Source: Salinigranum halophilum (GTDB taxonomy: Archaea; Halobacteriota; Halobacteria; Halobacteriales; Haloferacaceae). From it: DNA of 64,000 nt. Below, piece after piece: positions 30,409 to 33,906 of this stretch. The position numbers were made by a program, and so were the translations under genes. Position 1 is the stretch's first letter, and each line of letters begins with the position of its first letter. The stretch spans positions 62,001 to 126,000 of the forward strand of contig NZ_SSNL01000005.1 in the NCBI RefSeq assembly GCF_007004735.1, given 5' to 3'. A model generated the notes under the pieces. The model had not been told where the DNA came from. It made no database searches and saw nothing but the letters and a program-made list of their open reading frames with translations.

Positions 30409-30430
30409 AACGGTTGTGCCGTCCACGTGC

Positions 30431-33112
30431 ATGGTCGATTTCAGTCGACGTAACCTGATGGCCTCATCGCTGGCTGCGGCGCTCGGCGCGAGCGTGGCGG
30501 GAAGCGGTGTTGCGAGTGCGAGCAACAGCGAGATCGAGGAATCCGACACACCGAACGCTCCGAGCGTGAGGGGGAGCATCAAGCGCTTCTCGAACACCGC
30601 GTTCGGGGCAGAGGTGACCGGACCGTTCGTCTTCGCCGACGGCACCCTCCTCTACAGCAATCAGCACCCGAGCGAGGAGAACACGGGCGAGTTCTCCGCC
30701 CCGGGTGTCGGCTACTTCAGTGGTTTCAACTTCGAGATGGACGGCTCGAACGCCGACTTCTCGGAGCTGTCGATTCCGGAGACCGAAGAACAGCGCCGAC
30801 GGATTCGCTCCAGCGCGGGCGAGTACACCTACCTCGGAAAGGGCCGTGACTCCATCAACGGTGGTACCGAGCGCCTCGGCGTAACCCAGACGCCCGACGG
30901 CACCGACATCACGATGGACAACTTCGCGGGCACCCAGTACGGCGCGGCTGCGACCAACCCTGACTGCAACGAGTTCGTCGCCACGAACGAGGAGGAGACC
31001 GAGGGGTACCTCTTCACCAACTGGGAGAACAGCCCGGGATGCGTCAGCAGGATTCCGATCAGCCAGACCGAAGACGGCGAGTGGGAGTCCGACCTCGAGA
31101 ACGCCATCAACGTCGTCAACACCGACGCGTTCCGCGCCGTCGGTGGAACTCGCATCAACTGTTACGGTGACCTCTCGCCGTGGAATACGATGGTCACCTC
31201 CGAAGAGAACTACGCGCACCCACGCGTCTCTCTGACCAACACGGTGGGCGACATCGTCGAAGCCGGTTCCGGCGAGGGCCTCGTCGGCGGCTGTCAGTTC
31301 TGGAACCGACCGAACCCCTCGGAGATCCAGGGTGCAGTCAACGACTACGCCGACAACGGCGACCTCGAGAGTAGCTGGTACGTCCAGGGCTACTGGGCGC
31401 TGACCGGCGTCGAGTTCCTCGCGTACTACCTCGGCGCGGACCAGGTCGACCAGTCCGGTGACTCGAACACGTTCGCCCCCATCAGCGACGTCTACCCGAA
31501 CCCCTACCGCTACGGCTACCAGGTGGACATCCGCGACGCCGCGGCGGACGAACCCACACCCATCAAGTACTACGTGATGGGCCGCGCCTCCTGGGAGGCA
31601 CCGGACTTCCAGAACGACCACAAGACGGTCTACGGCTGCTCCGACGGCGACTCGAAGGGCATCTACAAGTTCGTCGCCGACGAGGAGATTCCCGGCTACG
31701 ACGACCCGATGGACGTCGAGGGCACGCTGTACGCCCCGAAGATCACCAACGACTCGGCGAACGTCGCCGAGTCCGGCACCCGTGCCTCCCCGGCCGATGT
31801 CAAGCTCGAGATCGAGTGGATCCCGCTCGGCCACGCCTCCAACGCGGAGTGTGAGGAGTGGATCGCCCAGTACGACGACGTCACCCAGATGGACTACCTC
31901 GAGACCCACACGGCCGACGACACCGACGTCGTGGGGGACCTCAACGCGGCACTCAAGCAGGCCGACCTCGAGGTCATCGCGAACGGCAACCAGAACTACA
32001 TCACGAACGAGGAGATTCTCGAGTGGGCCGACCAGTACGAGGAGAACGGCCCCGACGGCGTCGACGACGAACTCCGCAAGGTGCCCTTCCTCGAGACCCG
32101 CGCGGCCGCCAAGGAGATCGGCGCCTCCATCGAGTTCAACAAGGCCGAGGGCGTCGACAGCGTCTCCGACGCCGGTCCCGGCGACTACGTCTACTTCGGC
32201 ATCTCCGAGTTCAACGACGACCTCGCCGACGAGACGGGCGACGTCCGGATGGACCGCGTCGACGGCGGCGTGATCTACCGCGGCGAACTCGACGCGAACT
32301 ACAACGTCTCGACGCTCGAGGCGGCCATCGTCGGCCCGGACTTCACCGACGGGCCGGAGGTCGCAAACGACGCGGTGCGCAACATCGACAACGTCTACGT
32401 GATGGACGACGGTCGCGTCCTCTGCTGTGAGGACGGCTTCGACGAGTCGCGGCGCTCGTACCCCAACGACTGTCTCTACGTCTACCAGCCCAACGTTCAG
32501 GTCGACGTCAGCTCCGTCGCGGTCGGGCAGGGCGAGACGGTCGAGGCGGACGTCATGGCGAAGCACGTCCCGGAGGGACTCGCCGGCGGTACGTTCGAGG
32601 TAGAAGTCGCAGACGAGAGCGTCGTCGAAATCGTGAGCGCGAGCTACCCCGACGCGGTCGGCCTGTCGAAGCAGCCGACCATCGAGGACGGCAAGACGGC
32701 GACGTTCAAGTTCGCCGATACGAACAAGCTGATGCAGCAGGAGGGCACCGAGTTCAAGCTCGCCACCATCACCCTCACCGGCATGGGCGCAGGTGCCACG
32801 GACATCGACACCAGCGCGTCGTTCGACGACGACGACGGCAACGCCATCGACGTCGAACCCCGTTCCGGCATTGCCCTGACCGGTCCCGCAAGCGTCGGCA
32901 GCAGCAGTGCCTCGCCGCAGGACCCCGACGGTGATGGCCGCTACGAGGACGTCAACGGCAACGGCCGCGTCGACTACGACGACGTCGTCACGCTGTTCAA
33001 CAACCTCGAGAACAGCAACGTGAAGTCCAACGCTCGCGCGTTCGACTTCAACGGCAACGAACAACTCGACTACGCCGACCTCGTCGTGCTGTACGAGGAG
33101 ATCGACGCCTGA
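30431..33112 (+). CDS. PhoX-type exported phosphatase with cohesin-like and dockerin modules
   Basis: The 893-residue protein carries a Tat signal (FSRRNLMASSLAAALG) and signal-peptidase-like ASA site. Residues about 40-680 resemble the DUF839/PhoX phosphatase family (NWENSPGCVSRIP, GVEFLAYYLG, VYGCSDGDSKGIYKFVAD, VMDDGRVLCCEDG). A cohesin-like beta module follows (about 690-820: VDVSSVAVGQGETVEADV, EGLAGGTFEV, SYPDAVGL). The C-terminal about 60 residues form a dockerin with two calcium loops, DVNGNGRVDYDD and DFNGNEQLDYAD. It is followed by a surface protein with a related cohesin-like module, so it likely docks outside the cell. The phosphatase substrate is not known. Confidence 0.83.
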   Translation: MVDFSRRNLMASSLAAALGASVAGSGVASASNSEIEESDTPNAPSVRGSIKRFSNTAFGAEVTGPFVFADGTLLYSNQHPSEENTGEFSAPGVGYFSGFNFEMDGSNADFSELSIPETEEQRRRIRSSAGEYTYLGKGRDSINGGTERLGVTQTPDGTDITMDNFAGTQYGAAATNPDCNEFVATNEEETEGYLFTNWENSPGCVSRIPISQTEDGEWESDLENAINVVNTDAFRAVGGTRINCYGDLSPWNTMVTSEENYAHPRVSLTNTVGDIVEAGSGEGLVGGCQFWNRPNPSEIQGAVNDYADNGDLESSWYVQGYWALTGVEFLAYYLGADQVDQSGDSNTFAPISDVYPNPYRYGYQVDIRDAAADEPTPIKYYVMGRASWEAPDFQNDHKTVYGCSDGDSKGIYKFVADEEIPGYDDPMDVEGTLYAPKITNDSANVAESGTRASPADVKLEIEWIPLGHASNAECEEWIAQYDDVTQMDYLETHTADDTDVVGDLNAALKQADLEVIANGNQNYITNEEILEWADQYEENGPDGVDDELRKVPFLETRAAAKEIGASIEFNKAEGVDSVSDAGPGDYVYFGISEFNDDLADETGDVRMDRVDGGVIYRGELDANYNVSTLEAAIVGPDFTDGPEVANDAVRNIDNVYVMDDGRVLCCEDGFDESRRSYPNDCLYVYQPNVQVDVSSVAVGQGETVEADVMAKHVPEGLAGGTFEVEVADESVVEIVSASYPDAVGLSKQPTIEDGKTATFKFADTNKLMQQEGTEFKLATITLTGMGAGATDIDTSASFDDDDGNAIDVEPRSGIALTGPASVGSSSASPQDPDGDGRYEDVNGNGRVDYDDVVTLFNNLENSNVKSNARAFDFNGNEQLDYADLVVLYEEIDA

Positions 33113-33204
33113 GACGACTGCGACTGCGTCGAGCGAACTGACACGGCGGTCTCCGCCGCCGCCCCCGCTCGTTCGGCACACCATCCCCCCACACCACCCA
33201 ACAC

Positions 33205-33906
33205 ATGCCACGAGAGACAGACCGGTTCCGAACCGCCATCGTCGGCGTCGTCCTCCTCGCACTCTGCGCTTCGGCGCTGACCGGAGCGGCGACCGCCCAG
33301 ACAGACAGCCCGACCATCCGCGTCGAGAGCGCGACCGTCCAGCCGGGTGAGACCGCGACCGTCGACGTCGTCCTGACGTCGGCACCGAACGGGCTCGCCG
33401 GCTACGCCGTCGACCTCTCGGTCGGAAACAGTAACGCGCTCATCCAGGGGGCGAGCTACCCCGACGCGTTCGGGCTCACCTCGGAACCCACCCTCTCAGA
33501 GGACGGCTCACGGCTCACCCTCGAGGCCGCAGACCTCAACGAGCAGGTCCAGCCCGGCGCAACGGACGTCGTGCTCGCGACGGTCGAGGTGTCCAGCGGC
33601 ATGGCCGGCGACATCACGCTCTCGGTCGAACCGCTCCAGTTCGACGCCGACGGCGGGTCCGCGGTCGACCCCGTGAGCGAATCGGGAACCGTCACCGTCA
33701 CCGCGGGTGAGGACGCCGACTCGACCGGGACGACCGACGCCGATTCGGCCGACTCGGACGCCGCGGCGGCCGCGTCGAACGACGGCGACGCCTCAGAAGC
33801 CGCGACCGAGACGACGTCGACCGAGTTCGCCTTCCCCGCTGGCGGAATCGCGCTGACGGCGCTCGCGCTGACACTCGTCGCCGCGTTCGCGGCGCGTCGT
33901 CGGTAG
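33205..33906 (+). CDS. Surface protein with cohesin-like domain
   Basis: The 233-residue protein has a Sec-type signal peptide (about 1-32), a cohesin-like beta domain (about 34-165: VESATVQPGETATVDVVL, NGLAGYAVDL, ASYPDAFGL, DVVLATVEV), a Thr/Asp/Ser/Ala-rich stalk (about 168-205) and a C-terminal hydrophobic helix ending ARRR, like an archaeal PGF-CTERM style anchor though the PGF is FPAGG here. It would display the cohesin at the cell surface, available to the dockerin of the upstream phosphatase 92 nt away. Direct binding is inference. Confidence 0.82.
   Translation: MPRETDRFRTAIVGVVLLALCASALTGAATAQTDSPTIRVESATVQPGETATVDVVLTSAPNGLAGYAVDLSVGNSNALIQGASYPDAFGLTSEPTLSEDGSRLTLEAADLNEQVQPGATDVVLATVEVSSGMAGDITLSVEPLQFDADGGSAVDPVSESGTVTVTAGEDADSTGTTDADSADSDAAAAASNDGDASEAATETTSTEFAFPAGGIALTALALTLVAAFAARRR

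Follow-up and report, generated by a model that had tools for sequence, protein, structure and literature searches.

A dockerin-bearing PhoX-type phosphatase and its neighboring cohesin protein form a conserved gene pair in haloarchaea, with a predicted role in surface anchoring

Within a window of 64,000 nucleotides from the haloarchaeon Salinigranum halophilum (assembly GCF_007004735.1, contig NZ_SSNL01000005.1, positions 62,001 to 126,000 of the forward strand), we have analyzed two adjacent genes whose features are listed in table 1. The first encodes a phosphatase of PhoX type which ends with a cohesin-fold module, here called TC, followed by a dockerin; the second encodes a small protein, here called P2, in which another cohesin module stands between a signal peptide and a stalk with a C-terminal helix. 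The pair probably constitutes an enzyme–anchor cassette, in which P2 would tether the phosphatase to the cell surface in trans via the dockerin. For the phosphatase we prefer the ATG start at 30431 (MVDFSRRNLMASS...), a GTG being in frame at 30416.

Table 1. Coordinates of the phosphatase–anchor gene pair in the window (PhoX, phosphatase family; TC, cohesin-fold module of the phosphatase; P2, surface cohesin protein; ORF, open reading frame)
Feature	Position	Strand	Basis or detail
PhoX-type phosphatase gene with C-terminal cohesin-like module and dockerin	30431..33112	+	ORF, 893 residues from ATG; PF05787, PF00404
Predicted twin-arginine signal region, VDFSRRNLMASSLAAALGASVAG...	30431..30523	+	Sequence; Arg pair kept in 27 PhoX
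PhoX domain, with N-terminal propeller block FGAEVTG...QHP	30563..32488	+	Pfam residues 232-680 of P0001; 3zwu/4amf match
TC, cohesin-fold module within the phosphatase	32489..32905	+	PF00963 19.7-21.3 bits; homology to P2 module; orthologue fold
Dockerin with two calcium loops	32915..33109	+	PF00404 above cut-off
Dockerin calcium loop 1, DVNGNGRVDYDD	32948..32983	+	Arg of position 7, 32966-32968; recognition Tyr of position 10, 32975-32977
Dockerin calcium loop 2, DFNGNEQLDYAD	33044..33079	+	Repeat-2 Tyr of position 17, 33092-33094
Intergenic gap, 92 bases	33113..33204	+	
P2, predicted surface cohesin protein, 233 residues, Sec-type signal peptide first	33205..33906	+	ORF; orthologues directly 3' of PhoX-TC-dockerin genes
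P2 cohesin module	33310..33705	+	Tyr50-Pro51, 33457-33462; Glu72, 33523-33525; Gln110, 33637-33639
P2 acidic stalk, rich in Asp, Ser, Thr and Ala	33706..33825	+	Sequence; composition conserved across orthologues
P2 C-terminal anchor helix, FAFPAGGIALTALALTLVAAFAARRR, hydrophobic, then RRR	33826..33903	+	Sequence

The first product is assigned to PhoX by a PF05787 match of 82.2 bits (cut-off 24) and by a profile of 27 haloarchaeal PhoX rows, which matches the solved PhoX 3zwu/4amf at E 6e-12. The Arg pair of its N-terminal signal is invariant across the 27 aligned haloarchaeal proteins, and this RR signal points to export by the twin-arginine translocation (TAT) pathway, the Pfam TAT_signal family matching with an E value of 0.3 only; the gene product is predicted to be a TAT-exported active phosphatase. 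It shares with the PhoX of Pseudomonas fluorescens (3zwu/4a9v) the family match, the TAT-type signal and the conserved blocks NC....PW.T....EEN and GR...E, but differs in having the added cohesin and dockerin modules and in the position of the EVTG...QHP block, which is C-terminal in the Pseudomonas protein (3zwu 515-558) and on the N-terminal side in the haloarchaeal one. As a side observation, the haloarchaeal PhoX looks like a circular permutation of the bacterial one when 30563-30688 is compared with 31109-32455, the scores being weak and the motif the same. In another locus of the same genus (L171:1519-4359), the phosphatase extends for about 40 residues beyond the dockerin, with a sequence rich in Gly, Asn, Asp and Ser.

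A preliminary description of this DNA had recognized a PhoX-type phosphatase ending in a two-loop dockerin, and this identification holds: PF00404 scores 26.0 bits against a cut-off of 22.9, matches all 21 tails (21/21), and the two repeats have their calcium ligands at positions 1, 3, 5, 9 and 12, which are Asp or Asn in all tails. It had also placed cohesin-like modules in both proteins, related through common GLAG and SYPDA.GL blocks. The blocks are real and present in both TC and P2, and G28-L29-G31 and Y50-P51 are invariant among P2 orthologues; the signal peptide, stalk and anchor helix of P2 are directly visible in the sequence. The profile searches that the same description named as a possible refutation gave a divided outcome, since the dockerin lies above its Pfam cut-off while both cohesins fall below theirs: TC reaches 19.7 bits with PF00963 (cut-off 24.1), whole P2 has no Pfam match, and the isolated P2 module reaches 13.9 bits (E 0.066, cut-off 24.1). 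Profile–profile comparison of the P2 and TC families with hhalign supports the cohesins, however, with probability 99.9, E 2.7e-34 and 36% identity over 129 columns. When the PDB was searched by sequence with the P2 profile, no cohesin was matched; solved cohesins were reached by fold comparison only. In sequence terms, TC and P2 represent a divergent cohesin branch, for which single-sequence support is weak and family-level evidence firm, because the hhalign result is joined by AlphaFold2 models that match solved cohesins.

These models were obtained from natural Haloarcula mannanilytica chains, with alanine in place of the stop codon that separates the two genes; one chain comprises TC, dockerin and P2 module, the other dockerin and P2 module. 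An alignment of mixed composition (A4) was left out because its P2-only rows aligned to TC. Every module folds, the cohesin modules mostly with a predicted local distance difference test (pLDDT) of 85-98, and the top Foldseek matches of both chains are solved cohesins, most single-module matches having a target template modeling (TM) score of 0.6-0.79. For the three-module chain the first match is the type II cohesin dyad 3l8q, with an alignment length sufficient for both modules, followed by single cohesins including 2xdh of Archaeoglobus; for the P2 chain the matches are single cohesins with target TM up to 0.78. Both TC and the P2 module are thus predicted to adopt the nine-stranded sandwich of cohesins.

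How widespread is the association of the two genes? A survey of one genome per species, encompassing 84,980 species, provided 45 PhoX relatives, of which 19 have the TC-dockerin tail and 26 are tail-less; P2 comes directly 3' of PhoX in 12 of the 19 tail-bearing loci and in none of the 26 tail-less ones. When whole genomes were searched, no strong P2 was found in the 6 whose tail-bearing PhoX has no adjoining P2, nor in the 10 fetched for tail-less PhoX. In a second survey, covering 391 Halobacteria, a PhoX-TC-dockerin gene stands immediately upstream in all fetched loci with P2 over 140 bits except one cut by the contig start, and in five loci two such genes precede a single P2. In locus L019 the contig starts with a P2 gene and a tail-less PhoX lies downstream of it, as in the long-P2-short array of L021. 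The pairing is conserved across dozens of haloarchaeal species belonging to many genera. Among P2 orthologues, PGF occurs at the C-terminal helix in 36 of 79; the archaeosortase (PGF-CTERM) motif is not in the P2 of the window, which reads FPAGG before the helix. Separately, a P2 that follows two tail-bearing PhoX genes (L133:7200-8014) appears to be split into two overlapping frames, by frameshift or sequencing error.

The residues of the dockerin follow the presence of P2 in a specific manner. We have compared 95 distinct PhoX tails, 80 adjoining P2, 5 from first copies of tandem arrays and 10 without P2; these counts express no prevalence, because the loci were partly fetched via P2 matches. 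In dockerins, positions 10, 11, 17, 18 and 22 are considered to be recognition positions and 1, 3, 5, 9 and 12 calcium positions (PMC6780208), the recognition role of 10 and 11 being described also elsewhere (PMC8063739). The largest difference of all dockerin columns lies at position 10 of repeat 1, with Tyr in 85/85 tails where P2 is present and in 1/10 where it is not. Next in size are the differences at position 5 of repeat 1, where Asn changes to Asp and a ligand is retained, at position 17 of repeat 2 (Tyr in 76/85 versus 2/10) and at position 7 of repeat 1 (Arg in 84/85 versus 4/10). The Asp or Asn of the calcium positions and the core are kept in both groups.

On the side of P2, Leu22, Ala48, Tyr50-Pro51, Glu72-Ala73 and Gln110 are invariant or nearly so, and are not so in TC. 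These residues lie on, beside or at the end of predicted strands 3, 5, 6 and 8; in solved cohesin complexes, the dockerin binds the 8-3-6-5 sheet. Glu72 is found in 80/80 P2 proteins, whereas its equivalent in TC is Arg, Lys or Gln in 93/95, for which reason we argue that P2, and not TC, is the receptor. The sequences suggest that a contact between Arg7 of the dockerin and Glu72 of P2 may be part of the interface, even if neither residue varies enough for a test. TC is more likely a diverged cohesin working as a spacer than a receptor. It is retained in P2-less genomes, where the recognition Tyr of the dockerin is mostly gone, and in one locus, L192, a PhoX has TC without a recognizable dockerin; because TC persists and the calcium sites are kept in the P2-less genomes, the tail has some function also without P2. 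By analogy with the X-modules that precede type II dockerins of cellulosomal systems, we prefer to consider TC as a spacer or support in cis: in both cases a beta-sandwich module stands directly before a C-terminal dockerin, although the haloarchaeal module has itself a cohesin fold and its support of the dockerin is our proposal. Self-association of TC is possible.

In molecular terms, the cassette would work as follows. The phosphatase would be exported via TAT and P2 via Sec; the C-terminal helix would keep P2 in the membrane, the stalk presumably raising the cohesin outward. Outside the cell, with calcium in both loops, the phosphatase dockerin would bind in trans to the cohesin of P2, chiefly by Tyr at position 10 and Arg at position 7 of repeat 1, aided by position 17 of repeat 2, the contact face of P2 being formed by Tyr50-Pro51, Glu72-Ala73 and Gln110. 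In this way the enzyme would be kept at the cell surface, where freed phosphate can enter the cell, with TC as a diverged cohesin fold spacing or supporting the dockerin in cis. That the neighbor docks the phosphatase at the surface had been suggested in the preliminary description, and the synteny and the recognition residues, which in these sequences tend to be kept only with the anchor gene, support it well. Some evidence weighs against the proposal. Along the PhoX tree, P2 is gained or lost only about three times, with Tyr following in two of the three cases and never in the opposite direction, too few for a test, and two whole-family searches found no clear further independent loss. Moreover, the ten tail-bearing PhoX without P2 still have an intact-looking dockerin, which therefore has some other use. 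Lastly, the structural predictions and co-folding proposed earlier confirm the cohesin folds but provide no confident docking, since the predicted TM scores (pTM) of the read-through chains are 0.49 and 0.57, which we roughly estimate to be close to the value expected of separately folded modules.

The main alternative is that the dockerin binds its own TC, either intrachain, producing a closed C-terminal unit, or interchain, producing a homo-oligomer or filament which P2 would extend or cap. Consistent with this alternative, the tail-bearing PhoX, including those without P2, have with a single exception both TC and dockerin, and the dockerin is better defined in the chain with TC (pLDDT about 85) than in that without (74), a weak hint of cis contact from models whose alignments differ. 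Yet TC lacks the other P2-specific invariants besides Glu72, the Tyr of repeat 1 is lost in P2-less tails although TC stays, and the PhoX of L192 has no recognizable dockerin beside its TC. We therefore consider binding to TC unlikely. Homo-oligomerization, which the preliminary description had deduced from the presence of both module types in the enzyme, was considered as the principal explanation and then demoted, because TC does not have the P2-type face and the recognition Tyr tracks P2.

The possibility that the phosphatase is attached through its tail to a substrate or glycan outside the cell, P2 being a mere neighbor, draws upon the substrate-binding role that two papers on haloarchaea attribute to dockerins (PMC10963439, PMC13260240); we find it very improbable, since it leaves unexplained both the strict pairing with the gene of a membrane-anchored cohesin and the P2-dependent conservation of the recognition residue. 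The genome contains also a second cohesin protein, on contig C3, with a Thr-rich stalk and a terminal helix, which could serve the phosphatase dockerin in place of P2. However, this protein directly follows its own dockerin enzyme, a TAT calcineurin-like phosphoesterase with a DNRLRE domain and a dockerin of another type (L081:4084-7343), so as to form a second enzyme–anchor pair, and across species PhoX is linked to P2 and not to the cohesin of contig C3; hardly any weight can be given to this option.

Other dockerin proteins, which the preliminary description had proposed to search for, are three in all in this genome, PhoX included; none is a recognized glycoside hydrolase, no multi-cohesin protein is among the matches, and the hallmarks of a cellulosome, several polysaccharide enzymes with dockerins together with a multi-cohesin scaffoldin, were not found in it. 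With the phosphoesterase of contig C3 and PhoX, two of the three are phosphoesterases by family. The third, on contig C2 (L082:6756-9089), belongs to the choice-of-anchor-I family and has a TC-dockerin tail nearly identical to that of the phosphatase; no P2-like gene was found beside it, and P2 may serve it in trans. Besides L082, choice-of-anchor-I proteins of L120 and L129 have this tail, and so do 5'-nucleotidase-like proteins of L119 and L124, all with the repeat-1 Tyr and in genomes that also have a PhoX-linked P2. Large proteins of 1131-1150 residues in L115-L118 have a more diverged cohesin-dockerin tail, and a P2-like gene comes after each of them; the one examined (L115:361-4586) contains DUF4350 and a nuclease-like domain. 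It is conceivable, if rather doubtful, that PhoX, 5'-nucleotidases, choice-of-anchor-I and nuclease-domain proteins all dock on P2-type anchors in a haloarchaeal surface assembly for phosphorus scavenging, through an exchangeable tail made of a cohesin-fold spacer and a Tyr-type dockerin, with some encoded in gene pairs and the rest docking in trans. If true, this would be cellulosome-like logic applied to phosphate in place of cellulose. Archaea have been said to lack scaffoldins (Peer 2009 as cited in PMC9012536), and PMC9012536 itself reports some in ANME (anaerobic methanotrophic) archaea. As separate observations, two haloarchaeal reading frames look scaffoldin-like, with at least 5 cohesin matches each (G286:C1:2396356-2398515, 1040 residues; G064:C1:484736-487342, 1260 residues), and dockerin or tail-like matches amount to 77 in genome G023 and 52 in G125, suggesting large dockerin repertoires.

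Around the gene pair of the window, the identifiable neighbors are diol-dehydratase reactivation genes, an HbpS-like protein and a methyltransferase; a phosphate operon was looked for there and not found. A promoter scan of the intergenic gap, limited to bacterial-type promoters and thus not covering archaeal ones, found none.

Among known systems, the non-cellulosomal pair of Archaeoglobus fulgidus similarly combines an archaeal cohesin and a dockerin outside cellulose degradation, and its cohesin 2xdh matches the P2 model with target TM 0.78; its neighboring genes, too, bear cohesin plus dockerin and cohesin alone. Binding has been shown there while the attached function is unclear, whereas the haloarchaeal dockerin sits on a recognizable phosphatase, its partner has a stalk and a membrane anchor, and the pair is conserved over many genera. 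Anchors of the OlpA/OlpC type in Clostridium thermocellum (3ul4, 4dh2), which both P2 and TC models match, likewise offer an anchored single cohesin to a dockerin enzyme. Such clostridial anchors use an S-layer homology domain, whereas the haloarchaeal anchor is a C-terminal helix and its pair is without cellulases or scaffoldin. For Archaeoglobus, archaeal cohesin–dockerin binding has been established by works cited in PMC9012536 and PMC9705933, and many of these modules are present in ANME archaea (PMC9012536, PMC9705933). A literature search that left most subscription journals outside its scope returned no paper joining "haloarchaea" with "cohesin domain". The haloarchaeal gene pair is real and conserved, and our best reading of it is a predicted docking of enzyme on anchor, a variant of the known cohesin–dockerin kind.

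Since the work on Archaeoglobus, archaea have been known to possess cohesins and dockerins. Here a defined enzyme, an anchor and a candidate contact residue render docking directly testable in culturable haloarchaea, and would give surface display a docking pair that tolerates salt. As dozens of species share the pairing, their cells probably hold phosphorus-scavenging enzymes on the surface, as cellulosome bacteria hold cellulases; if this is true, surface retention of phosphatases would be widespread in haloarchaea.

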